From: Siphonodentalium dalli
Taxonomy: Eukaryota > Mollusca > Scaphopoda > Gadilida > Siphonodentaliidae
Reading direction: 5' to 3'
Assembly: GCA_032622095.1 (NCBI GenBank)
Contig: CP136062.1
Span: 14,785,710-14,849,709, forward strand
Length of the DNA stretch: 64,000 nucleotides
The notes below the pieces were generated by a model, which was not told the DNA's origin, searched no databases, and was given only the letters and a program-made list of their open reading frames with translations. Position 1 is the first letter of the stretch. The number at the start of each line of letters is the position of its first letter. The position numbers and the translations under genes are program-made. Shown one piece after another: positions 1-41,932 of this stretch.

Positions 1-3000
1 TTAAGCCTATAGTTTCTGACTTCGTTCTCTCGACCAGTTTTCCTATTAAGCCTATAGTTTCTGACTTCGTTCTCTCGACCAGTTTTCCTATTAAGCCTAT
101 AGTTTCTGACTTCGATCTCTCGACCAGTTTTCCTATTAAGCCTATAGTTTCTGACTTCGTTCTCTCGACCAGTTTTCATATTAAGCCTATAGTTTCTGAC
201 TTCGATCTCTCGACCAGTTTTCCTATTAAGCCTATAGTTTCTGACTTCGTTCTCTCGACCAGTTTTCCTATTAAGCCTATAGTTTCTGACTTCGATCTCT
301 CGACCAGTTTTCCTATTAAGCCTATAGTTTCTGACTTCGTTCTCTCGACCAGTTTTCCTATTAAGCCTATAGTTTCTGACTTCGTTCTCTCGACCAGTTT
401 TCCTATTAAGCCTATAGTTTCTGACTTCGATCTCTCGACCAGTTTTCCTATTAAGCCTATAGTTTCTGACTTCGATCTCTCGACCAGTTTTCCTATTAAG
501 CCTATAGTTTCTGACTTCGATCTCTCGACCAGTTTTCATATTAAGACTATAGTTTATGACTTCGTTCTCTCGACCAGTTTTCATATTAAGCCTATAGTTT
601 CTGACTTCGTTCTCTCGACCAGTTTTCCTATTAAGCCTATAGTTTCTGACTTCGATCTCTCGACCAGTTTTCCTATTAAGCCTATAGTTTCTGACTTCGA
701 TCTCTCGACCAGTTTTCCTATTAAGCCTATAGTTTCTGACTTCGATCTCTCGACCAGTTTTCATATTAAGCCTATAGTTTATGACTTCGTTCTCTCGACC
801 AGTTTTCATATTAAGCCTATAGTTTATGACTTCGTTCTCTCGACCAGTTTTCCTATTAAGCCTATAGTTTCTGACTTCGTTCTCTCGACCAGTTTTCATA
901 TTAAGCCTATAGTTTCTGACTTCGATCGCTCGACCAGTTTTCCTATTAAGCCTATAGTTTATGACTTCGATCGCTCGACCAGTTTTCCTATTAAGCCTAT
1001 AGTTTCTGACTTCGTTCTCTCGACCAGTTTTCATATTAAGCCTATAGTTTCTGACTTCGATCTCTCGACCAGTTTTCCTATTAAGCCTATAGTTTCTGAC
1101 TTCGTTCTCTCGACCAGTTTTCCTATTAAGCCTATAGTTTCTGACTTCGTTCTCTCGACCAGTTTTCCTATTAAGCCTATAGTTTCTGACTTCGATCTCT
1201 CGACCAGTTTTCCTATTAAGCCTATAGTTTCTGACTTCGTTCTCTCGACCAGTTTTCCTATTAAGCCTATAGTTTCTGACTTCGTTCTCTCGACCAGTTT
1301 TCCTATTAAGCCTATAGTTTCTGACTTCGTTCTCTCGACCAGTTTTCCTATTAAGCCTATAGTTTCTGACTTCGATCTCTCGACCAGTTTTCATATTAAG
1401 CCTATAGTTTCTGACTTCGTTCTCTCGACCAGTTTTCCTATTAAGCCTATAGTTTCTGACTTCGTTCTCTCGACCAGTTTTCCTATTAAGCCTATAGTTT
1501 CTGACTTCGTTCTCTCGACCAGTTTTCCTATTAAGCCTATAGTTTCTGACTTCGTTCTCTCGACCAGTTTTCCTATTAAGCCTATAGTTTCTGACTTCGA
1601 TCTCTCGACCAGTTTTCCTATTAAGCCTATAGTTTCTGACTTCGTTCTCTCGACCAGTTTTCATATTAAGCCTATAGTTTCTGACTTCGATCTCTCGACC
1701 AGTTTTCATATTAAGCCTATAGTTTCTGACTTCGTTCTCTCGACCAGTTTTCCTATTAAGCCTATAGTTTCTGACTTCGTTCTCTCGACCAGTTTTCCTA
1801 TTAAGCCTATAGTTTCTGACTTCGTTCTCTCGACCAGTTTTCCTATTAAGCCTATAGTTTCTGACTTCGATCGCTCGACCAGTTTTCCTATTAAGCCTAT
1901 AGTTTCTGACTTCGTTCTCTCGACCAGTTTTCCTATTAAGCCTATAGTTTCTGACTTCGTTCTCTCGACCAGTTTTCATATTAAGCCTATAGTTTCTGAC
2001 TTCGATCTCTCGACCAGTTTTCCTATTAAGCCTATAGTTTCTGACTTCGTTCTCTCGACCAGTTTTCCTATTAAGCCTATAGTTTCTGACTTCGATCTCT
2101 CGACCAGTTTTCATATTAAGCCTATAGTTTCTGACTTCGATCTCTCGACCAGTTTTCCTATTAAGCCTATAGTTTCTGACTTCGTTCTCTCGACCAGTTT
2201 TCCTATTAAGCCTATAGTTTCTGACTTCGTTCTCTCGACCAGTTTTCCTATTAAGCCTATAGTTTCTGACTTCGATCTCTCGACCAGTTTTCCTATTAAG
2301 CCTATAGTTTCTGACTTCGTTCTCTCGACCAGTTTTCATATTAAGCCTATAGTTTCTGACTTCGATCGCTCGACCAGTTTTCCTATTAAGCCTATAGTTT
2401 CTGACTTCGATCGCTCGACCAGTTTTCCTATTAAGCCTATAGTTTCTGACTTCGTTCTCTCGACCAGTTTTCCTATTAAGCCTATAGTTTCTGACTTCGA
2501 TCTCTCGACCAGTTTTCATATTAAGCCTATAGTTTCTGACTTCGTTCTCTCGACCAGTTTTCCTATTAAGCCTATAGTTTCTGACTTCGTTCTCTCGACC
2601 AGTTTTCCTATTAAGCCTATAGTTTCTGACTTCGTTCTCTCGACCAGTTTTCCTATTAAGCCTATAGTTTCTGACTTCGATCTCTCGACCAGTTTTCCTA
2701 TTAAGCCTATAGTTTCTGACTTCGTTCTCTCGACCAGTTTTCATATTAAGCCTATAGTTTCTGACTTCGATCTCTCGACCAGTTTTCCTATTAAGCCTAT
2801 AGTTTCTGACTTCGTTCTCTCGACCAGTTTTCCTATTAAGCCTATAGTTTCTGACTTCGTTCTCTCGACCAGTTTTCCTATTAAGCCTATAGTTTCTGAC
2901 TTCGTTCTCTCGACCAGTTTTCCTATTAAGCCTATAGTTTCTGACTTCGATCTCTCGACCAGTTTTCATATTAAGCCTATAGTTTATGACTTCGTTCTCT

Positions 3001-4834
3001 CGACCAGTTTTCATATTAAGCCTATAGTTTATGACTTCGTTCTCTCGACCAGTTTTCCTATTAAGCCTATAGTTTCTGACTTCGTTCTCTCGACCAGTTT
3101 TCATATTAAGCCTATAGTTTCTGACTTCGATCGCTCGACCAGTTTTCCTATTAAGCCTATAGTTTATGACTTCGATCGCTCGACCAGTTTTCCTATTAAG
3201 CCTATAGTTTCTGACTTCGTTCTCTCGACCAGTTTTCATATTAAGCCTATAGTTTCTGACTTCGATCTCTCGACCAGTTTTCCTATTAAGCCTATAGTTT
3301 CTGACTTCGTTCTCTCGACCAGTTTTCCTATTAAGCCTATAGTTTCTGACTTCGTTCTCTCGACCAGTTTTCCTATTAAGCCTATAGTTTCTGACTTCGA
3401 TCTCTCGACCAGTTTTCCTATTAAGCCTATAGTTTCTGACTTCGTTCTCTCGACCAGTTTTCCTATTAAGCCTATAGTTTCTGACTTCGTTCTCTCGACC
3501 AGTTTTCCTATTAAGCCTATAGTTTCTGACTTCGTTCTCTCGACCAGTTTTCCTATTAAGCCTATAGTTTCTGACTTCGATCTCTCGACCAGTTTTCATA
3601 TTAAGCCTATAGTTTCTGACTTCGTTCTCTCGACCAGTTTTCCTATTAAGCCTATAGTTTCTGACTTCGTTCTCTCGACCAGTTTTCCTATTAAGCCTAT
3701 AGTTTCTGACTTCGTTCTCTCGACCAGTTTTCCTATTAAGCCTATAGTTTCTGACTTCGTTCTCTCGACCAGTTTTCCTATTAAGCCTATAGTTTCTGAC
3801 TTCGATCTCTCGACCAGTTTTCCTATTAAGCCTATAGTTTCTGACTTCGTTCTCTCGACCAGTTTTCATATTAAGCCTATAGTTTCTGACTTCGATCTCT
3901 CGACCAGTTTTCATATTAAGCCTATAGTTTCTGACTTCGTTCTCTCGACCAGTTTTCCTATTAAGCCTATAGTTTCTGACTTCGTTCTCTCGACCAGTTT
4001 TCCTATTAAGCCTATAGTTTCTGACTTCGTTCTCTCGACCAGTTTTCCTATTAAGCCTATAGTTTCTGACTTCGATCGCTCGACCAGTTTTCCTATTAAG
4101 CCTATAGTTTCTGACTTCGTTCTCTCGACCAGTTTTCCTATTAAGCCTATAGTTTCTGACTTCGTTCTCTCGACCAGTTTTCATATTAAGCCTATAGTTT
4201 CTGACTTCGATCTCTCGACCAGTTTTCCTATTAAGCCTATAGTTTCTGACTTCGTTCTCTCGACCAGTTTTCCTATTAAGCCTATAGTTTCTGACTTCGA
4301 TCTCTCGACCAGTTTTCCTATTAAGCCTATAGTTTCTGACTTCGTTCTCTCGACCAGTTTTCCTATTAAGCCTATAGTTTCTGACTTCGTTCTCTCGACC
4401 AGTTTTCCTATTAAGCCTATAGTTTCTGACTTCGTTCTCTCGACCAGTTTTCATATTAAGCCTATAGTTTCTGACTTCGTTCTCTCGACCAGTTTTCATA
4501 TTAAGCCTATAGTTTCTGACTTCGATCGCTCGACCAGTTTTCCTATTAAGCCTATAGTTTCTGACTTCGATCGCTCGACCAGTTTTCCTATTAAGCCTAT
4601 AGTTTCTGACTTCGTTCTCTCGACCAGTTTTCCTATTAAGCCTATAGTTTCTGACTTCGATCTCTCGACCAGTTTTCATATTAAGCCTATAGTTTCTGAC
4701 TTCGTTCTCTCGACCAGTTTTCATATTAAGCCTATAGTTTCTGACTTCGTTCTCTCGACCAGTTTTCCTATTAAGCCTATAGTTTCTGACTTCGTTCTCT
4801 CGTAGTTCGTTCTCTCGTAGTTCGATCTCTCGAC
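1..4834. repeat. 45-bp satellite array, ~107 monomers
   Basis: Head-to-tail 45-bp monomers in uninterrupted phase from base 1 to about 4802, then two truncated remnants up to 4834. Only a few sites vary: C or A in the TTTMTGAC stretch, T/A plus a TCTCT/TCGCT choice after TTCG, and TCCTA or TCATA at the monomer end. Both strands carry stops in every frame, so it is non-coding. The array continues beyond the left edge of the window. Confidence 0.98.
721..4275. repeat. Higher-order duplication inside the satellite
   Basis: Reading the variant sites monomer by monomer, the 30 monomers at 721-2070 match those at 2926-4275 at every variable site, an offset of 2205 bp (49 monomers). The shared run includes the rare TTTATGAC monomers (766, 811, 946 against 2971, 3016, 3151). 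Beyond 4275 the match resumes with small changes. This is a recent block duplication of about 2.2 kb. Confidence 0.9.
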
Positions 4835-5149: not shown

Positions 5150-5980
5150 TCTTTTCAGAGAGGAGCATGCACTTCATTTAGCAATCAACTTTCAACTGAA
5201 TACATGTGTGACATTGTAGTTTGTGGTGAAGAATGCATAATGATAATCAACTTAAATGCCTGGAGCTTTGGTTCTGTTTTGCCCACAGGGGTCTGTAACG
5301 CGCTCCACTGTCCGCCCCCTTTTGCGCTGCCCATATACGCCGCTTCTATATATGTGCCTGCTTCATGCTAATGGTAGTATAATCGACACAAGGGTAACTG
5401 TAGATATTCACCCTTTTAACAGTGTTCGGACAAATTTAGCCCATTCACCCAACTAATGCTAACGATATAGCCACGGATGTATCGGCGAAGAATTCATCTT
5501 TCAATCAATACCACAAACTCCCATCAGAACCATTCATATACATAGCATTTGATAAATTTAGTAGAAACAGACAATCACCGCTCAGTATTAGAATCGAGGT
5601 CCTGGCTATATCGTTAGCATTAGTGGGGTGAATGGGCTAAAAGGGGGTGGACAGTAGAGCACGTTACAGGCCCATGTGGTTTTGCCTTATAAGTTCCCAG
5701 TTGTTAAGTTTAAACCAATAGTCCCCACTTGTACACACTGTAATTCATTGACTTGGTCGTGTTTGTTAATTTTGGGGATATGATACAAGAACCTTAAATT
5801 AATATTATCAGAGCGAAGCATGCATGTCATTTAGAAATCTACTTTTCAATAACAATACTTCTGTGGCAATTTAATTTGCTGTGAAAAAGATAAAGTTAAC
5901 AAACACAACCACACCAATGAATTTGTGTGTAAAAGTGGGGACTGTTGATTTAAACTTAAGAACTGGGAACTTATCCAAAG
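5150..5980. repeat. Nested fold-back elements
   Basis: Two inverted-repeat pairs lie side by side. In the first, the left arm (about 5283-5476, split by ~100 bp of extra sequence) pairs with 5603-5679. In the second, 5686-5768 pairs with 5896-5975. A diverged direct repeat (about 5155-5245 and 5810-5890, both carrying AGCATGCA and CATTTAG) surrounds them. The pattern suggests non-autonomous fold-back DNA elements inserted into or next to each other. No target duplication was identified. Confidence 0.7.
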
Positions 5981-8792: not shown

Positions 8793-9755
8793 ATGAAAAC
8801 CAAGAGGATCCACGCGGGTGATCGGCCATTCCAATGTGATGTGTGTGAGAAATCATTTACTCAGTCTAGTATCCTGGCTACACATAAGAGGATCCACACA
8901 GGGACTCGGCCGTATCGTTGTGATGTGTGTGAGAAATCATTTACTCAATCTATTCACCTGGCTATACATAAGAGGAACCACACAGGGGATCGCCCGTACC
9001 AATGTGATGTGTGCGAGAAATCATTTACTCAGTCGAGTGACCTGACGAAACATAAGAGGATTCACACGGGTGAACGACCGCATCAATGTGATGTGTGTGA
9101 GAAATCGTTTACGCAGAAGGGTAGCTTGACGAGACATAAGAGAATCCACACGGGGGATCGCCCGTATCAATGCGATATGTGCGAGAAATCATTTACTCTG
9201 TCGAGTAACCTGACTACACATAAGAGGATCCACACGGGGGATCGCCCGTATCAATGTGATGTGTGCGAGAAATCATTTACTCAGTCTATAGGCCTGACTA
9301 CACATAAGATGATCCACACAGGGGATCGCCCGTACCAATGTGATGTGTGCGAGAAATCATTTACTCAGTCGAGTGACGTGACGAAACATAAGAGGATCCA
9401 CACGGGTGAACGACCGCATCAATGTGATGTGTGCGAGAAATCATTTGCTGACTCGAGTAGCTTGACGAAACATAAGAGGATCCACACCGGAGATCGCCCG
9501 TACCAATGTGATCTGTGTGAGAAATCATTTACTCAATCTAATCCCCTGGCTACACATAAGATGATCCACACGGGTGATCGGCCATACCAATGTGATGTGT
9601 GCGAGAAATCATTTACTCAGTCGAGTGACCTGACGAGACATAAGAGGATTCACACGGGTGAACGACCGTATCATTGTGATGTGTGTGAGAAATCATTTAC
9701 TCTGAAGGGTGACTTGACGAAACATAAGAGAATCCACACGCGGGATCGCCCGTAA
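8793..9755 (+). CDS. C2H2 zinc-finger protein, 11 fingers
   Basis: A 320-codon open frame consisting almost entirely of eleven 28-residue C2H2 fingers ([21 protein letters not shown]) joined by TGDRP/TGERP linkers, variants of the canonical TGEKP. This family normally binds DNA in the nucleus, with each finger reading about three bases. The residues that contact DNA vary between fingers (SSIL, SIHL, KGSL, SSNL, SSDV, SNPL), as expected for a sequence-specific array. ATG 8793 is the first in-frame Met, just before finger 1. No KRAB, BTB, SCAN or ZAD domain is visible in frame. The frame ends at TAA 9753, where the next finger would have Tyr (TAC), and fingers continue afterwards. It may be a truncated family member, the last exon of a longer gene, or a young pseudogene. 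Confidence 0.75.
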   Translation: MKTKRIHAGDRPFQCDVCEKSFTQSSILATHKRIHTGTRPYRCDVCEKSFTQSIHLAIHKRNHTGDRPYQCDVCEKSFTQSSDLTKHKRIHTGERPHQCDVCEKSFTQKGSLTRHKRIHTGDRPYQCDMCEKSFTLSSNLTTHKRIHTGDRPYQCDVCEKSFTQSIGLTTHKMIHTGDRPYQCDVCEKSFTQSSDVTKHKRIHTGERPHQCDVCEKSFADSSSLTKHKRIHTGDRPYQCDLCEKSFTQSNPLATHKMIHTGDRPYQCDVCEKSFTQSSDLTRHKRIHTGERPYHCDVCEKSFTLKGDLTKHKRIHTRDRP

Positions 9756-10340
<585 letters not shown>

Positions 10341-10410: not shown

Positions 10411-10942
10411 TTAAAGGTGGATTATCTCTTTGTAAACATGTATTATATAGTTACCGGGGTATAAAATGTTAGATTTGAATCGAAGACTCCTGTCCGGAAA
10501 TGCTTCAATCGATTAATAATAATTTTATTTCGAATATTTTCTGGTCTAAAAAGGTGTGTTTGTTCAGCTAACGAACAATAGTGGTTACTGTTAACAGAGA
10601 CCAGAAATTATATTGTGCAATTTTGTCACAAATAAACGTTAATTATACTCATTATCGCTTATATCTGTGGAACAAAACAATACAAGCAACCAATTTGTGA
10701 CATTTGACATTCGTTGCGTAGCCGTAGGAACAGCCCAGCGCTCTATATCGCAATACGGTCTCATCCGAATGGTCGGTTCTAGAAATAGTAACATAAACGG
10801 GCCCGATTTAATATTCGAAATAAAATCAATATTAATTGATAGAAGCTTTTCCGGACATAGGTCTTCAGTTCATATCTATTATTTTATACCCACGCAACTA
10901 TTTAAAATTTATTTGTTATTTAAAGAGATAATCCATCTTTAA
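10411..10942. mobile_element. TTAA MITE, family 2 (GGATTATCTCTTT ends), complete
   Basis: TTAA at 10411 and 10939. Termini are AGGTGGATTATCTCTTT and the inverse AAAGAGATAATCCATCT. The body is the reverse complement of the copy at 14876-15404. The matching empty site is at 12597-12600. The 91-codon ORF inside is not conserved as a gene. Confidence 0.9.
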
Positions 10943-13736: not shown

Positions 13737-14433
13737 TATATATAACTACGTATTGTGACATTGTTCTATCCTCCGCTGCTTGAGACCACTTTTTAAAATG
13801 ACTTTTTCGTGATAGAAACATTTTGATTTTCTTTGGCACGTATTATGCGAAGGTATCTTAACATAACTATGTCGATCATCTATTCGATAAATATAACTCT
13901 CGTATGAGTTGTTCTGTTAGTTTTAGTCAGATCATTCAAGTTAAGGTCAGCAGTGGCTTCTGAACGGAAACACAACAGTAAACTCTATCATTCATTGTAC
14001 ATGTATGGACTGACCAAGTGATGGAGCCATCGAATTGAACATTGTTTTCTTATTAAAGTGTGGCAAACCATAGAAACAGGTGCACACCTTGGCTACGCAT
14101 ACGTGTAAGAGGATCAACACTGGGTGTCGCCCGTATCAATGCGATGTGTCCAGGGAATCATTTACTCAGTCAAGAAGGCATTCGTCCAGTCGAGAAACCT
14201 GATACACACCGGGGACCTCCCATATCATAGACATAGGAACCAAGACTGTATTAATGTAGTCTGTGCTAGAAGGTAGTTGTTATCCAGTCGATGAAGCCTG
14301 ACTAAATGTATATATGCACTGATCAACGCCGGCGGGAGTATCCGTACTAATGCGAGAAATCATTTACTCAGTCGAGTTTTCTAACGAAACATAAGATGAT
14401 CCAAAGTGCATTGAGTCCAGCGGAAGTAGGGGG
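13737..14433 (+). pseudogene. Zinc-finger module copy B, upstream region and decayed fingers
   Basis: 13737-14105 matches the upstream segment of copy A. 14105-14400 contains broken C2H2 pieces (CGATGTGTCCAGGG, a HTGDLP linker, an AATCATTTACTCAGTCGAG finger start and ACGAAACATAAGATGATCC). No finger is complete in frame. It runs into the left end of the DNA transposon at 14434. Confidence 0.75.
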
Positions 14434-14875
14434 TAACCCAAAATTCTCTGTTATAGTTTGTTTCTTTGCTGATTATTCATGGGGAGGGTCTCTGTAATGA
14501 TTTCTAGTGTGGCGTGGACGTCTCAACCTTGAGCATTTTTAGAAATCCAAGATGGCGTCTAAGATGGCTACCGGATTTCGGTATTTTATGTAATCGGTTA
14601 ATAACTTTCTCGAATTGAGGTTTAATATGTCAATTTATGATAGGAATCTTATATTATATGTGGATCGAACTATGTTTCACATTTTCGATGCTTGATTATA
14701 AAGATGGCCGTAAAAATGTCCGCCAAATACATGAAAATTATGCAATATTGCAATATATAGATTATTACAATAATTTGTTTTATCAAAAATACAAATAAAA
14801 TCCAAAGAAACGAATACAAAGCCAAAAGAAACCAATACGTCGCCAGTCGCGCGAATTTTAACAACAAGCGTGTTA

Positions 14876-15404
14876 TTAAAGATGGATTATCTCTTTAAAT
14901 AACAAATTTTAAATAGTTGTGTGGGTATAAAATATTAGATATGAACTGAAGACCTATGTCCGGAAAAGCTTCTATCAATTAATATTGATTTTATTTCGAA
15001 TATTAAATCGGGCCCGTTTATGTTACTATTTTTAGAACCGACCATTTTAGATGAGACCTTATTGCGATATAGAGCACTGGGCTGTTCCTGTGGCTACGCA
15101 ACAAATGCCAAATGTCACAGATTGGTTGTTTGTATTGTTTTGTTCCACAGATATAAGCGATAATGAGTATAATTAACGCTTATTTGTGACAAAATTGCAC
15201 AATATAATTTCTGGTCTCTGTTAACAGTAACCACTATTGTTCGTTAGCTGAACAAATACACCTTTTTATACCAGACCATATTCGAAATCAAATTAATATT
15301 AATCGATAGAAACATTTCCGGACAGGAGTCTTCGATTCAAATTTAATATTTTAAACCCCGGTAACTATATAATACATGTTTACAAAGAGATAATCCACCT
15401 TTAA
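14876..15404. mobile_element. TTAA MITE, family 2, nested in the DNA transposon
   Basis: TTAA at 14876 and 15401. Ends are AGATGGATTATCTCTTT and AAAGAGATAATCCACCT. It is the inverse of 10411-10942, with conserved inner words such as TTAACAGTAACCACTATTG. The insertion postdates the host transposon. Confidence 0.92.
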
Positions 15405-15532
15405 ATTATACGAATTGACCATACTGCATCCTCTATCTGAAGCATATGTTCCAAATCAATGTTATTCTCGTTAACATCACAGTGTTTTGTAAACTCGTTA
15501 AAACAGTTAAGCGCACCTTGACACGAACATAA

Positions 15533-18500
15533 TTACGTGCACGACAAACCAGCACGAGAGCACCCACATCTCTTTGATGAGCAAGGCGAATTGCTGGTGC
15601 ACGAACACCGTATCAGCTTCAGTATGCTATCCGGGGCCTTTGGTATGTTGTCGGCAACCGTGGTTGGAACGAGTTCGTCGCCATCTTTAGACCAACCACA
15701 ATTTGTTGCCTCCATATCCGACCAAGTAGCAACTTGAAAGTGAGCACGCTTTATATTTTCAATGAAAGCTTCGGTGGTTGGGGTTAACGAGTTCAATTTT
15801 GGATCACACGCCATTGACCGTTCAACTTTTAACGACCACATTTTCATTCTTGCTTCTGTTGTGCTCTTACAATTTTGGAGACCATAACACGTCAAAATGA
15901 AAGGCAAGACTTCGTCCACTACATCACTTATATTTATATGACTATTCCCGAGCATACTCAAAGGGTGCTTTCCACTGCGCAGAGTTTTTAGTGCCCAACA
16001 CTTCACAATACCAAAGTATATGATGCAACGGTGTCGCGCCCTGTCAATCCGTGCATCGCTAGCAGATCAGCGATAATTTTGCTATGCGTCTGGTAAGTTT
16101 TGTTTATGTCGATCGTAGTCTGACCTTTAGCTGGGGAAGCCATCCGTACACGTCCAGAAATCTCACCCACGTGCACGAAATGCAGAAGCATTATAAATAT
16201 GTCGGTGTCGTCAGCTTGGATGAGTGATCATGATGTTGAAATATTTGCTACCTGGTTAATGATGACCGTATCGGCTTCTTCCTGTGTTGACTTGAGGTCA
16301 ATTCGCGAACTATCAAACCTTTGGGGTTTTCCAGAGGCACTGGATCTTCTCCCGTAATGACCAATTTGTGTTGAGTTTCCTTCCAATCGTCAACGTGTTT
16401 CTGAAGGTCTTGGCAGATAAGATTAACAAGCTGTGCTTTGTTATGTGTAACAGTAAGAATTACTTTTTGGGATTGAAGTCGGGTAGTTGTCTTCAGTGTG
16501 TGCATCCGACTTGCATCTTGGTCTCGTCCGATTCCTTCGTGCTTCCTGTAATGTATCGATCAAGTACAAGGTAGACATATGTGGTCTTCATCTGGTTACG
16601 AATGTACAATCTAAACCAATTTAGATAATCCCGAGCAGCGCCAGGGGATGACCATCTGGCTCGAACATAGAAGCTGGAAATGGAGCGAGTTCGTGAGACA
16701 ATATGTCATTAATATCTACACTACGGGAGCTGTCATGCAGGCCCCATTGCGCCGACATATATGATTTCGGGGTAAAATATTTTCCCATCGTCTATCTTTA
16801 TATGCTTGCGGGACTGTTCCTTTGTATGCGCGTCACGGGTTATTTTATTGTGGAATCCGTCTGGCAAACTCTTCTCAAACTCTTGCATTTGCTTCAAACC
16901 CAATGCTCTAGAATTGTCAACATTCACAGTTTTGTCGCTAACTATCTTGCCCGAATCGATATTGATAAGACCATCGGGGTGCTGACTTGGTTCAAGGGGA
17001 TCAATACAAATCTCCAGTTTAGCTCGCAAAGCTTCCCTGTCGACAGCATCAAGTTTAATTCTGGACGTTGACTCTTCCTTGTGGTTTGTGAGATTGATTC
17101 GTATCACAATTTTGCATTGATTCTAAATCTTTTATCAGACCATTGCATGTGTGTAAGCTGTATGTCCAGGTTTTTTGATGCCCTCTGGCTTTAGTGTTAT
17201 ACCAATTATTCCAGAACGTCCGTGCCCATATCTCATAAATGTAGTTGCGATGGCCATGTCTGTCCAAATTCCATTAAAAATTCCAGTGTTGTGGTGCATT
17301 GTGTGCTCGCCCTTCACGAAGTGTTGGCCGACATGTTCGGGCAATGATTCCATTGAACGTAAATAATACAAGGCATAGCTGGCATATTGGATATGACCGG
17401 CTGCAAAAAACAATAGAATCATATCACTGACCGAATGTAGATGTAATGGCCAATCCGATTCACGCTTAGCACGTATGTATTTCAACATAAGAAACACTGA
17501 TCTCAACAGACAGTCAATCCACAGCTTAGACGTTCTACTTTGAAGTGCCAATCTGTCCAATGTCATGCATGCATTCCATTTCGAATTTGCGAAATACAGG
17601 ACACAACACTTATTCAGCCAACATTCGAGAGCACGAACATTTTGCAAAAATTTCTTTCCTGTGAGCATTTTCAATACTCCACCAAACTGTACAATGAGGA
17701 TTTCCACCAAACCACTTTCCGCCATCAACGAACCTATCGAGGCACAGTAACTCATCAGAAGATGCTTGCCCCGATTCGCAGATACACGTCATTAAACTTA
17801 GTATGATTGTCCCAAGTGTCGTGCAAGTCAACACGATATAACTGTTGGTCTGCAGTGAATATGACAAAGGCTTGTCCAGCTGATCGAGACAAAGTCTGAG
17901 CTGTTGTCATTGCAGCTATCATTTTTCTGTGAATCTGCTGATTGTCTGTCTATCAGCGGGAGATAGACAATATTTGTCTTTAGTCTAGCAGACTGTCCCT
18001 GTTCCCGACACAAATTGGTATTGTATTTATTATATTCGGAGCAGTTGTCCTTGTAAATCACAACCTCAAAGAAAGACAAATCGTTTTCACCTGCCCGCCG
18101 CCGCAAAATATCTTGATGGTGGCTGAATTTACGTGAAACGGTGGATTTGGGAACACTGTTTATTACAGTGTCCTTAGAAATTTTGTTGAATTGAGATTCG
18201 TCAATTGTATGTTCATCTATCGTGGTATTTGGAAGGTCATCTTTCTTCAAATGAGGAATTGATATCGCAGCGAGGAAAGTCATCAATGTGCAGTAAACAG
18301 ATTCTCCAATGGATATCCTATCAACTGAATATTGTATTCCGATCTGTTGCTGGTAATGTTTTTGCATTCCTCAACCACATGCTTAGCAACTGTTGTAATA
18401 TGCGGTTCTAAATCGTCTTCACTTTCTTCCTTTACCAATCTCAAAACATTTGCTGTATTTTGATGGAATGCTAAGACACTTGCATTACCGACAGCAGACA

Positions 18501-19266
18501 GTGTAAGGATTTCGTCACAAACGTGACGTTTCAGTTCAGTGATCGGCTGTGGCCGTGCCAAAAGACACCCATCGTGGGCTTTATATGCGTTGTGCAGTTC
18601 AACAGAATTCCAAATACGTTTCTTGTTGCTCGCGACTACATTGATGACATGCTGTAAAGCTGTATCCGCATGAGCAGTCACTGTGTGGTCAGATTCATTT
18701 GGCGTAAGGCTTCTTTTCTGGACAAATTTTGTCATACAATCCTTATGATAACGCACATCAACTGCATGAAGGTCAATCAGCGCACTTCCAATCCTACAAC
18801 GAACCTCCTGTCCCCAAACATCCCCTCGAGCATCACATTTTTCTAGTAGCCCTATCCTATATGACTTTCCCTATTCTGTGTGAGTCGAGCGACAAATATA
18901 TGCAGAGAGCCATCTTTCTGGGTTTGTATTATCCTTATTAACCATGCACTCCTGCCCACAATACAAACAATGCAATTGGAGCTGGAATCCAGAAACCGAT
19001 CGGCGAGATCTCTTAGCAGGTGATGCGTCCCTTCTTACAACATCCAAGTTGGTTTTTGACGTATATCGAGCAATGCAGTTCCTATGAAAGTTTAAGTTTT
19101 CATCTTCCAAAAGTTTGTCCTCTAAAATTGCATGTAGGTGATCGTCATAAACTTTACTTGCATTAATAATAGTCAGAATTCTACTTGTATTAGCATTAAC
19201 CGAACATAGGTCTGTCGAAATACACCTGTCGCCATACCGAAATTTAAAAATGCACTCTTCCGTCAT
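15533..19266 (-). pseudogene. Decayed transposon-type gene with PIN/XPG-like nuclease region
   Basis: Read right to left, successive open pieces in changing frames form one long protein. 19266-18871 has HRNC and CLYCGQEC clusters. About 18860-18283 contains RYHKDCMTKF. 18367-17828 is low in motifs. 17755-17135 contains MRYGHGRSGIIGITLKPEG. 17107-16733 contains HKEESTSRI and VNVDNS. 16505-16248 contains KLVITGEDPVP. About 16310-16003 contains EEADTVIINQ, DDTDIFIMLL and LTGRDT, the acidic motifs of a PIN/XPG-like fold. 16006-15533 ends in a Cys-rich CSCTSNSPCSSKRCGCSR tail. Frameshifts separate the pieces, for example near 18870, 18340 and 16005, and a TGA interrupts the run just before DDTD. 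The same domain order is widespread in uncharacterised, multicopy proteins of aquatic invertebrates. It is not functional as it stands. Confidence 0.75.
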
Positions 19267-19269
19267 AGT

Positions 19270-19745
19270 TCATCTCACACGAGTCTGAAACTGAAAGGAA
19301 AGACATTAATTTATATACAAACTCCGAAAATATATATATCAATCAATTAGTAACTCAGTCATCAACCAAGAGTATAATATGTGACACGAATGTGATTGCC
19401 GAGAAAATCTCAGCTGAAACAACTTAATCGCATTCAAAACAATTATAAAATAATGATGTGTTAATGACATAACACTCCATATTTGAATATACATGGGCAA
19501 TCACATGTAAAATAACCAATTGAACCACATCATTGCAGCTCCAAACTCAGTTATTTTAGCATATCGTTATATTTTTTTTATATTTTCACATATTTGGCGG
19601 CCATTTTGGCAGCCATTCTTAATTCATGACACCGACATTCCATATTAGCACTCAGGTAATATATTAGGTTATGTTTAGGGACCAAATAGCAACCGTACAG
19701 TTATTTGGAAAGAAGATATCAGCTTCAAACTAAAACTAGCATATT
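19270..19745. other. Transposon subterminal non-coding region
   Basis: It lies between the decayed gene's start and the right inverted end. It contains GGCGGCCATTTTGGCAGCC, mirrored on the left side by AAAATGTCCGCCAAATAC. It probably holds the element's promoter, but no core promoter was identified with confidence. Confidence 0.4.
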
Positions 19746-19904
19746 TTGGCAGCCATCTTGGACGCCATCTTGGATTTCTCAAATTGCTCAATGGTGAGGG
19801 GTCCACACCACCAAAGAAAACGTTACATAGACCATCCCCATAAATAGTCAGCAAAGAAACAAACTATAACAGAGAATTTTGGGTTAGGCCAAAATTCGAC
19901 ACTT

Positions 19905-21275
19905 GGCTGCTGGACCGCCCGTTTCAATGTGATGTGTTCCAGAAATAATTTAATATTCACTCGAATAGCCTGACGACAGCCAAGATGAACCACGCGGGAG
20001 ATCGACCATACCAATGTGATGTGTGCGGGAAATCATTTGCTCACTTGAATGACCTGACGAAACATAAGAATATCCACACAGGGGATCACCCGTATCATTG
20101 TGATGTGTGCGAGAAATCATTTACTCAGTCGAGCAACATGACTGCACATAAGAGGATCCACACGGGGGATTGCCCGTTTTAATTTGATGTGTGCGAGAAA
20201 TCATTTACTCAGTCTAGTAACCTGACTTCACATAAGAGAATCCACACAGGTGATCGGCCGTATCGATGTGATGTATGTGGGAAATCATTTACTCAGTCGA
20301 GTTCTCTGGTTACACATAAGAGGATCCACCCGGGGGATCGCCGGTTTCAATGTGATGTGTGCGAGAAATCATTTAATCACTCGGGTCAATTGACTAAACA
20401 CAAGAAGAACCACACCGGAGATCTCCCGTATTGCGATGTGTGCGAGAAATCATTTGCTCACTCGAGTAATATCTGGTTACACATAAGAGGATCCACGCGG
20501 GGGATCGCCCATATCAATGTGATATATGCGATAAATCATTTACTGCGTTTGGTAACCTGACTTCACATAGGAGAATCCACGCCGGTGATCGCCCATATCA
20601 ATGTGATGTGTGCGAGAAATCATTTACGCATTTGCAAAATCTGACTACACATAAGAGGATCCACACAAGGGATCGTCCATATCAATGTGATATGTGCGAG
20701 AAATCATTTAAGCACGAGAATCCACGCGGGTGATCGCCCATATCAATGTGATTTGTGTGAGACATCATTTACTCTTTTGCAAAATCTGACTACACATAAG
20801 ATGATTCACACGGGTGATCGCCCGTATCAATGTGATATGTGCGAGAAATCATTTATTCAGTCTTGTGACTTGGCGAAACATAAGAGGGACCACACGGGTG
20901 ATCGCCCGTATCAATGTGATTTGTGCGAGAAGGTATTCGCCCGGTCGAGTAATCTGGCTGCACATAAAATGATCCACACTGAGGACTATCCATATCAATG
21001 CGATATATGCGAGAAAACATTTACTCAGTCGACGTTTCTGACGAAACATAGAATGATCCACACTGCACGTGGAGCGGCCGTATCAATGTGATGTGTTCCA
21101 GAAATAATTTATTCCCTCGAGTAGCCTGATGATAGTCAAAATAATCCAGACGGGAGACTGCCCATATCAATGCGACGTGTGCGAGAACGGATCATTTACG
21201 CTGTTGAATGACCTGATGGAACAAACTGGGACCCACACCAGGGATCGCCCATAACATTGTTATTTACAAGTCCAA
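19905..21275 (+). pseudogene. C2H2 zinc-finger pseudogene, module copy C
   Basis: An array of at least twelve finger units of the same type as copy A, but disabled. Two fingers (19985-20182) end where Gln became TAA. 20189-20460 is open. A two-base insertion near 20469 shifts the frame, and fingers continue in the other frame to about 20710. There, most of a finger's helix is deleted (AAATCATTTAAGCACGAG). Four good fingers follow (about 20740-21058, ending TFLTKHRMIH). After that the pattern dissolves into partial fingers up to 21250. The start region at 19914-19990 matches copy A at about 8760-8810. Confidence 0.85.
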
Positions 21276-21736: not shown

Positions 21737-22127
21737 TTGAAGATGGATTATCTCTTTAAATAACAAATTTTAAATAGTTGTGTGGGTATAAAATAATAGA
21801 TTTGAACCGAAGATCTATGTCCAGAAAAGCTTCTATCAATTAATATTGATTTTATTTCGAATATTAAATCGGGCCCGTTTATGTTACTATTTTTAGAACC
21901 GACCATTCGGATGAGACCGTATTGCGATATAGAACACTGGGCTGTTCATATGGCTGCGCAACCAATGCCACATGTCACAGATTGGTTGTGTGTATTGTTT
22001 TGTTCCACAGATATAAGCGATAATGAGTATAATTAACGTTTATTTGTGACAAAATTGGACAATATAATTTCTGGTCTCTGTTAACAGTAACCACTATTGT
22101 TCGTTAGCTGAACAAACACACCTTAGT
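21737..22127. mobile_element. TTAA MITE, family 2, right-truncated
   Basis: AGATGGATTATCTCTTT at the left, preceded by TTGA (decayed TTAA). The body is colinear with 14876-15265 and stops at ACACACCTTAGTCCC without a right end. The empty site for this insertion is the TTAA at 14598 in the other copy of the transposon end. Confidence 0.8.
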
Positions 22128-39478: not shown

Positions 39479-40150
39479 TGCAGGGAGCCCCACACATATA
39501 TAGAAGCATATAGAAGAGTGTCGTCTGCTCATGTTTGTCTGGGGCTCTGTATGAGTGAAATTATAAAATTGTTAAAGAATACAAGAACAAATTATTAAAA
39601 TTGTAAAAAATTGTTAGGCCAATGCATTCTCTTATATATGCGAGGCGACCTATGGTCGACTCGCATATAATTATAAGAGAATGCATTGGCACAGGGTAAA
39701 AAAAATCCCGACTTCCGACTGGATTTGATATGGCGGGTCACATATGTAAATCTAGCAGTTCTCTGCTGATAAACTTCTACTAAATGAACTGATTTGAGTT
39801 TGAAACTCAATGGTCTTAATTCTTGCATTTAGTAGCAGTTTTTGGAAGCAGAGAACCGTTTTATTTAAGTTTGAAACTCTCTTTGAGTAACTGTTTCATT
39901 TAGTAGTAGCTCGGAAGTTAACACTGCTGCTGTTACAAATGAAACTATGTGTTCTAAATTCGGATGCGCATATCACCTAAAATACGAGAAACAAAGCAAT
40001 TTTGATCCCGTTCCTTGCCACATATGATTGATTTAATTTGATTATGAGTAGGGTGGCGATATGGGAGGGAGTTCAGGGCCCGAGTGAGGCAGGTTGAAGA
40101 TGAAGGCGGGTGGCGATATGGGAGGGAGTTCAGGGCCCGAGTGAGGCAGG
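39479..40150 (+). repeat. 672-bp direct repeat right of the LINE
   Basis: Partner of 34652-35323. It runs directly into the expanded 57-bp minisatellite. It includes palindrome copy 7 (39618-39690) with the same 4-bp insertion as copy 6. Confidence 0.95.
39618..39690 (+). repeat. 69-bp near-palindrome, copy 7
   Basis: Duplicate of copy 6 through the 672-bp repeat. Confidence 0.95.
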
Positions 40151-41932
40151 TTGAAGACGAAGGCGGGTGGCGATATGGGAGGGAGTTCAGGGCCCGAGTG
40201 AGGCAGGTTGAAGACGAAGGCGGGTGGCGATATGGGAGGGAGTTCAGGGCCCGAGTGAGGCAGGTTGAAGATGAAGGCGGGTGGCGATATGGGAGGGAGC
40301 TCAGGGCCCGAGTGAGGCAGGTTGAAGATGAAGGCGGGTGGCGATATGGGAGGGAGTTCGGGGCCCGAGTGAGGCAGGTTGAAGATGAAGGCGGGTGGCG
40401 ATATGGGAGGGAGTTCAGGGCCCGAGTGAGGCAGGTTGAAGATGAAGGCGGGTGGCGACATGGGAGGGAGGTCAGGGCCCGAGTGAGGCAGGTTGAAGAT
40501 GAAGGCGGTGGCGATATGGGAGGGAGTTCAGGGCCCGAGTGAGGCAGGTTGAAGATGAAGGCGGTGGCGATATGGGAGGGAGTTCAGGGCCCGAGTGAGG
40601 CAGGTTGAAGATGAAGGCGGGTGGCGATATGGGAGGGAGTTCAGGGCCCGAGTGAGGCAGGTTGAAGATGAAGACGGGTGGCGATATGGGAGGGAGTTCA
40701 GGGCCCGAGTGAGGCAGGTTGAAGATGAAGGCGGGTGGCGATATGGGAGGGAGTTCAGGGCCCGAGTGAGGCAGGTTGAAGATGAAGGCGGGTGGCGATA
40801 TGGGAGGGAGTTCAGGGCCCGAGTGAGGCAGGTTGAAGATGAAGGCGGGTGGCGATATGGGAGGGAGTTCAGGGCCCGAGTGAGGCAGGTTGAAGATGAA
40901 GGCGGGTGGCGATATGGGAGGGAGTTCAGGGCCCGAGTGAGGCAGGTTGAAGATGAAGGCGGGTGGCGATATGGGAGGGAGTTCAGGGCCCGAGTGAGGC
41001 AGGTTGAAGATGAAGGCGGGTGGCGATATGGGAGGGAGTTCAGGGCCCGAGTGAGGCAGGTTGAAGATGAAGGCGGTGGCGATATGGGAGGGAGTTCAGG
41101 GCCCGAGTGAGGCAGGTTGAAGATGAAGGCGGTGGCGATATGGGAGGGAGTTCAGGGCCCGAGTGAGGCAGGTTGAAGATGAAGGCGGGTGGGGATATGG
41201 GAGGGAGTTCAGGGCCCGAGTGAGGCAGGTTGAAGATGAAGGCGGGTGGCGATATGGGAGGGAGTTCAGGGCCCGAGTGAGGCAGGTTGAAGATGAAGGC
41301 GGGTGGCGATATGGGAGGGAGTTCAGGGCCCGAGTGAGGCAGGTTGAAGATGAAGGCGGTGGCGATATGGGAGGGAGTTCAGGGCCCGAGTGAGGCAGGT
41401 TGAAGATGAAGGCGGGTGGCGATATGGGAGGGAGTTCAGGGCCCGAGTGTGGCAGGTTGAAGATGAAGGCGGGTGGCGATATGGGAGGGAGTTCAGGGCC
41501 CGAGTGAGGCAGGTTGAAGATGAAGGCGGTGGCGATATGGGAGGGAGTTCAGGGCCCGAGTGAGGCAGGTTGAAGATGAAGGCGGTGGCGATATGGGAGG
41601 GAGTTCAGGGCCCGAGTGAGGCAGGTTGAAGATGAAGGCGGGTGGCGATATGGGAGGGAGTTCAGGGCCCGAGTGAGGCAGGTTGAAGATGAAGGCGGGT
41701 GGCGATATGGGAGGGAGTTCAGGGCCCGAGTGAGGCAGGTTGAAGATGAAGGCGGGTGGCGATATGGGAGGGAGTTCAGGGCCCGAGTGAGGCAGGTTGA
41801 AGATGAAGGCGGGTGGCGATATGGGAGGGAGTTCAGGGCCCGAGTGAGGCAGGTTAAAGATGAAGGCGGGTGGCGATATGGGAGGGAGTTCAGGGCCCGA
41901 GTGAGGCAGGTTGAAGATGAAGGCGGTGGCGA
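40051..41932 (+). repeat. 57-bp minisatellite, ~33 units
   Basis: The unit starts GTGAGGCAGGTTGAAGATGA and ends AGTTCAGGGCCCGA. It is 19 codons long and open in plus frame 1 (VRQVEDEGGWRYGREFRAR) and in minus frames. Several 56-bp units (GGCGGTGGCG) lose a base and break the plus frame at about 40508, 40562, 41074, 41128, 41360, 41530, 41584 and 41925, so it is not a maintained coding repeat. GC-rich in an AT-rich setting. Confidence 0.97.

Follow-up and report, generated by a model that had tools for sequence, protein, structure and literature searches.

A 64,000-nucleotide stretch of the Siphonodentalium dalli genome (C2:14785710-14849709, called the window here) carries an element that, with a probability we put at roughly 0.84, is a decayed member of an autonomous family of DNA transposons whose best-fitting known kind is AcademX. 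We regard it as a new family of a known kind of transposon. The family has paired ends and 3-bp target duplications, and its gene, read from an intact copy elsewhere in the genome, encodes one long protein with fold-level similarity to transposases and to FEN1/EXO1/XPG-type nucleases and with conserved acidic residues in both parts. A DNA transposon with inverted repeats had already been proposed from the letters of the window alone (the sequence-only reading below), and the ends, the multiple genomic copies and the duplications bear this proposal out.

Ends, copies and target duplications

The window copy contains an identical 39-bp inverted repeat (14434-14472 and 19848-19886), and its arms are 87.5% similar over 136 bp or 82% over 165 bp (14423-14587 and 19733-19897). 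In a search of the assembly (2.23 Gb, or 2227 Mb, in nine contigs) with the left 134 bp, 40 of 380 candidates were scored and all 40 match at 93-100% identity, so the left inverted repeat is no chance similarity. Beyond the 39-bp repeats the shared sequence continues in other copies for 21 bp on the left side and 31 bp on the right side, with GTCCAGC and GCTGGAC near the ends, which makes the repeats subterminal and places the element at 14413-19917. The sequence-only reading had recognized the 39 identical bp and the similarity over ~135 bp, but it took the repeats for the tips, which lie 21 and 31 bp further out. The termini of the element read TAGTCC(A/G)G...C(T/C)GGACTA. In the window copy the canonical TA is replaced on the plus strand by GA at 14413-14414, followed by GTCCAGCGGAAGTAGGGGG, and by CG at 19916-19917.

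Patterns built on the outer ends occur genome-wide at 67 gene-start and 65 gene-end places, and the reversed-pattern controls at none. With a pairing limit of 25 kb, 34 of the 67 gene-start ends are paired with a gene-end terminus, 4.0-14.1 kb away, and 30 of these 34 paired-end elements enclose a match to the gene. The element can thus account for the multicopy gene in this genome, as had been suggested. The query of the gene search was a single 217-residue piece, and 150 of 1573 candidates were scored; the count of family members is thus a minimum, and the four pairs lacking a listed match may still carry the gene. Ten full copies besides that in the window measure 5.39-5.56 kb. Among the 11 full copies, nine are 97.0-99.3% identical to one another, and the most diverged are the window copy (94.7-95.5%) and one at C1:112.9 Mb (L014; 95.1-96.9%), both outside the clustered regions described below.

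Flanks were compared in 31 copies, comprising the window copy, the ten full copies and 20 of the 24 remaining pairs. TA stands on both sides of GTCC...GGAC in 26 of them, and our initial reading took this TA for the target duplication. When TA is instead counted as part of the element, an exact 3-bp duplication appears in 23 of 31 copies, compared with 35 of 930 control pairs made up of mismatched flanks. These 23 duplications comprise 13 different triplets, GGG and GCG among them, and a duplication reaching 4 bp was found in none of the 31. A genome search with the ends, for intact copies and for the target duplication, had been proposed at the outset; copies elsewhere in the genome supplied both, the intact frame being that of L009. 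In the window copy no target duplication survives and both terminal TA pairs are lost.

For each of the 31 copies we also joined the two flanks according to three rules (a 3-bp duplication, a TA duplication or none) and aligned the products to the window. Four joined sites aligned across the junction (L059, L067, L016 and L063), and three of the four fit the 3-bp rule best. L059 (193 bp) and L067 (122 bp), aligned with zinc-finger repeats, need no gap positions under the 3-bp rule, five under the TA rule and three under no duplication; L016, aligned with a copy of a miniature inverted-repeat transposable element (MITE), needs one gap under the 3-bp rule versus six and four. For the window copy, the joined flanks found no match other than its own flanks.

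A second, distant family follows the same pattern. Its member L019, at 43% protein identity, keeps the gene and similar termini together, and its inverted repeats (477 bp, 93.7%) are preceded by the outer ends TAGTCCGG. Exact 3-bp duplications are present in 13 of 20 end pairs chosen among the places listed (control, 17 of 380); because two of the pairs have the same flanking sequence, the count becomes 12 of 18 once redundancy is removed. The end patterns of this family occur at 352 and 166 places genome-wide, and its gene-end termini, among the ~100 of 166 that were listed, fall on all nine contigs. The 3-bp duplications, the joined sites and this second family together led us to drop TA as the target duplication.

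The encoded protein

The intact copy, L009, carries a single uninterrupted open frame of 1457 residues (protein P0001) and no other sense-strand frame of at least 150 residues. The longest open frames in nine other close full copies (L010-L018) span 458-1044 residues, so those copies are broken or shortened. In the window the gene is decayed and lies on the minus strand, with EEAD, DDTD and LTGRDT motifs and a Cys-rich tail, all of which the sequence-only reading had described; residues ~338-457 (with D427) and ~1003-1046 (with D1037) are deleted from it. The N-terminal part holds Cys/His clusters, putatively the zinc-binding ones of the sequence-only reading. Two structural models, of residues 270-935 and 936-1457, were built on alignments of copies drawn from this genome.

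The model of residues 936-1457 identifies the C-terminal domain as a FEN1/EXO1/XPG-type nuclease by fold. Its predicted local distance difference test score (pLDDT) is 61.2 overall and mostly 70-92 across model residues ~100-390. In structural comparison it matches EXO1 with Z 11.7 (249 residues, root-mean-square deviation (rmsd) 4.0), FEN1 with Z 10.9 and XPG with Z 10.2, at ~9-16% identity to the rows listed, and Foldseek returns 6c33 with E 6e-4 and probability 1.0. The order of the nuclease motifs is that of FEN1. Among loci that retain the residue, the acids D1037 (13 of 13), E1175 and D1257 (11 of 11 each), and E1176, D1178, D1198 and D1199 (12 of 12 each) are invariant; D1078 is kept in 12 of 13 and D1201 in 9 of 12. 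The PIN/XPG-like nuclease of the sequence-only reading thus stands by fold.

Less confidently, we interpret residues 270-935 as an RNase H-like transposase core whose closest structural matches are the P element transposase and RAG1. The model of this core matches the P element with Z 9.1 (345 residues, rmsd 6.6) and 8.8; the first non-transposase row, an unrelated ribosomal protein, has Z 6.5, and Hermes and ISCth4 follow at 5.9 and 5.8. In Foldseek the first 14 rows are RAG1 (best E 0.03, probability 0.41) and Transib appears at rank 29. Against a viral structure library the core gave 138 matches at E <= 10, the best with E 0.14 and probability 0.05; among the folds listed, none reached E <= 0.001. 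Conserved acids in the core include D427 and D598 (11 of 11 loci each) and D799 and E803 (13 of 13 each), with D565 (12 of 13) as another candidate.

Searches by sequence add little. The whole intact protein has no Pfam match at E <= 1 and nothing significant among PDB sequences, and PHROGs returns one family of unknown function (E 0.027). Eight frames from the window gave weak, unconnected Pfam matches that fall below the cut-off (best E 0.0031). Of the 24 rows of a protein alignment (A1), one weakly matches the CXC tail in Pfam (E 0.0031, below the cut-off) and three the 5'-3' exonuclease N-domain (best E 0.058). All 15 matches of one PDB sequence-profile search were to proteins that bind fatty acids or lipids (best E 0.062), and another such search gave none. 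Two pattern matches turned up in viral contigs, neither of them a relative by tblastn.

Classification and competing explanations

AcademX elements carry a nuclease of the XPG type. In the part of PMC10045372 on which we draw, duplications of 3 or 4 bp in AcademX and of 9 or 10 bp in AcademH are tied to the encoded helicase and nuclease; by that account our element resembles AcademX in combining a transposase-like core and a nuclease with a 3-bp duplication, and differs from AcademH, which has a helicase and 9-10-bp duplications. Its copies are also close in length to the 100 curated Academ elements of bivalves, whose mean is 5565 bp in the portion of PMC10294476 used here. The sequence-only reading had named Academ as the nearest superfamily, and by nuclease, duplication and length it fits best. 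A literature search returned no paper joining Academ with a flap endonuclease, nor one joining Academ with XPG and a 3-bp target site duplication.

Other known systems share single features. The Drosophila P element, the best structural match of the core, has an 8-bp duplication and is not known to carry a FEN-type nuclease, whereas the element described here has a fused nuclease and a duplication of 3 bp that reaches 4 bp in none of the 31 copies, which speaks against the P superfamily. RAG1 and Transib head the Foldseek rows for the core, albeit weakly, and Transib duplications are 5 bp. EXO1, FEN1 and XPG share the fold of the C-terminal domain, which here is fused to a transposase-like core within a mobile element. 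PIF/Harbinger elements have 3-bp TWA or TNA duplications and were rejected on the variety of the triplets found here; Kolobok elements duplicate TTAA and were rejected because the duplications here are 3 bp and varied; and Tc1/mariner was rejected with the duplication located outside TA. KolobokE, D and P also pair a DDD/E transposon with an added nuclease, and the nucleases described in part of PMC9587614 have other folds.

Several observations weigh against our assignment. The core has no Foldseek match at E <= 0.001, its model is moderately confident (pLDDT 63.8), and no sequence search (Pfam, PDB, PHROGs or PDB profile) found a transposase; the candidate catalytic residues are named from conservation. 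In the nuclease, D1201 is replaced by G in three of 12 loci (L019, L023 and L028) and D1078 by Y in L019. Ends without a partner make up 33 of 67 at the gene start and 31 of 65 at the gene end; ends and gene do not generally lie apart among the paired ends, yet these unpaired ends temper that result. An exact duplication is absent from eight of the 31 copies, the window copy included, and from seven of the 20 second-family pairs. The joined flanks of L063, a copy with neither a TA pair nor a duplication, favor the TA rule (three gaps, versus eight under the 3-bp rule and five under no duplication). Finally, the filing under AcademX is a best fit by features, with Academ represented by its published description.

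This last point leaves some room for an unlikely alternative, that the family belongs to a separate superfamily of DDE transposons with a nuclease, which converged with Academ on duplication length and domain set. The best fold matches of the core are indeed the P element and RAG1, the whole protein has no Pfam match at E <= 1, and the comparison with Academ is one of descriptions. The nuclease and the 3-bp duplication, however, both agree with AcademX as described in part of PMC10045372, and the length agrees with the bivalve Academ mean in the portion of PMC10294476 cited above.

Considerably less probable is that the nuclease gene is passenger cargo, as the sequence-only reading had it, with the transposase encoded elsewhere. 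Four of the 34 paired-end elements lack a listed gene match, in a search that scored 150 of 1573 candidates and so may have passed over the gene, and one second-family end pair is just 2.2 kb apart. Set against this, the other 30 enclose a gene match, the intact copy has no further sense-strand frame of at least 150 residues, the transposase-like core lies within the same protein, and the gene also occurs together with similar termini in a family at 43% protein identity. A Tc1/mariner-like element with a TA target duplication is hardly credible, since the TA flanking GTCC...GGAC on both sides in 26 of 31 copies and the fewest gaps of L063 under the TA rule are outweighed by the 3-bp duplications that emerge in 23 of 31 and 13 of 20 cases when TA is counted as element, and by L059 and L067, whose joined flanks align without gaps under the 3-bp rule but with five gap positions under the TA rule.

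Within the AcademX assignment we envision a protein of ~1460 residues that begins with a Cys/His-rich N-terminal part, continues with an RNase H-like DDE core carrying a helical insert and then a FEN1/EXO1/XPG-type nuclease, and ends in a Cys-rich tail. Such a protein would recognize the termini, TAGTCCRG together with the subterminal inverted repeats; its core would make the 3' cuts, excise the element and join it to the target with a 3-bp stagger that would leave the 3-bp duplications, and its nuclease would trim 5' strands, flaps or repair intermediates. Strand transfer by the core, processing of element or repair intermediates by the nuclease, and autonomy of the family at present or in the past are what we infer from these features. 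More tentatively, two active sites may work in one polypeptide, with the DDE core cutting and joining 3' strands and the FEN/EXO1-type domain removing 5' strands or flaps. In Tn7, TnsA and TnsB divide the strand work. If true, our proposal would describe a eukaryotic counterpart of that division of labor, and a mutation of the nuclease alone would lead to copying with unresolved joints instead of cut-and-paste.

The window locus, genomic distribution and implications

The window copy is inserted in a C2H2 zinc-finger array gene whose 84-bp repeat lies on both sides of the element, in arrays at 8802-10188 and 19912-21123. At least three of the 31 copies examined (those in the window and at L059 and L067) sit in such arrays, and the zinc-finger unit pattern occurs at 3899 places in the genome. 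Downstream of the gene, the window copy holds a nested MITE with its own inverted repeats of ~100 bp (arms 14901-15003 and 15278-15380). This MITE is also found at 10557-10825 and 21850-22050, its end pattern occurs at 5196 genomic places, and the element copy L016 is inserted within a copy of it. The window further contains two highly uniform tandem arrays, one at 1-4802 (45-bp unit, ~107 copies, 97%) and one at 40051-41932 (57-bp unit, ~33 copies, 98%, G-rich on the plus strand).

Table 1. Parts of the transposon copy in the window (window coordinates) and the basis for each
Feature	Position	Strand	Basis
Whole element, window copy	14413..19917 (5505 bp)	-	termini set from 10 further full copies
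Outer terminus, gene 3' side	14413..14433	-	common to independent copies; pattern at 65 places, reversed control 0
Inner (subterminal) inverted repeat, left arm	14434..14587	+	first 39 bp identical to right arm
Nested MITE, ~517 bp, boundaries accurate to within a few bases	14884..15400	.	absent at the same spot in L005 and other copies
Broken gene of the transposase-nuclease protein, with several frame changes	15455..19266	-	tblastn and blastn against L009/P0001
Cys-rich C-terminal tail	15455..15640	-	intact copy: weak CXC (TCR) match, PF03638 E 0.0031, below Pfam cut-off
Remaining FEN/XPG-type nuclease (by fold), residues ~1047-1262, with EEAD, DDTD, LTGRDT	16018..16654	-	motifs, L009 comparison, fold of intact copy
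Remaining transposase-like core and what follows, residues ~458-971	16742..18274	-	L009 comparison, fold of intact copy
Inner inverted repeat, right arm	19733..19886	-	arm-to-arm similarity
Outer terminus, gene 5' side	19887..19917	-	copy comparison; pattern at 67 places, reversed control 0

Across the genome the family is strongly clustered. Of its 67 gene-start ends, 55 lie on C3:11-66 Mb, nine on C1:264-273 Mb and three elsewhere, and the 65 gene-end termini divide into 51, 11 and three in the same way; 64 of the 67 gene-start ends thus fall within ~64 of 2227 Mb, whereas the listed ends of the second family are spread over all nine contigs. The two regions are possibly of low recombination or sex-linked, which would explain the clustering.

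Some arrangements within these regions point to rearrangement and duplication. At C3:42219811-42235519, eight gene-end termini follow one another on one strand at a spacing of ~2240 bp, and an element end seems to have been captured there in a tandem array. At C3:31095490-31101479 (L004 and L008) two gene-end termini in facing orientation, ~6 kb apart, flank a gene match; this is a rearranged element bearing the same end twice. Two copies of equal length (5468 bp), at C1:271837337-271842804 and C1:272479188-272484655, lie ~0.64 Mb apart in opposite orientation, and C3 has three similar pairs; some of these equal-length pairs may stem from segmental duplication and not from transposition.

A large gene family of this genome that Pfam does not recognize as a whole thereby gains a home in a transposon whose ends are exactly defined, together with a target duplication and a structural model of two domains, and such genes could be annotated as transposons and not as unknown host genes. 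That this young family is confined to two regions may point to an unusual part of the genome. The fusion of a transposase and a nuclease in one protein makes the role of a transposon's own flap-type nuclease directly testable.

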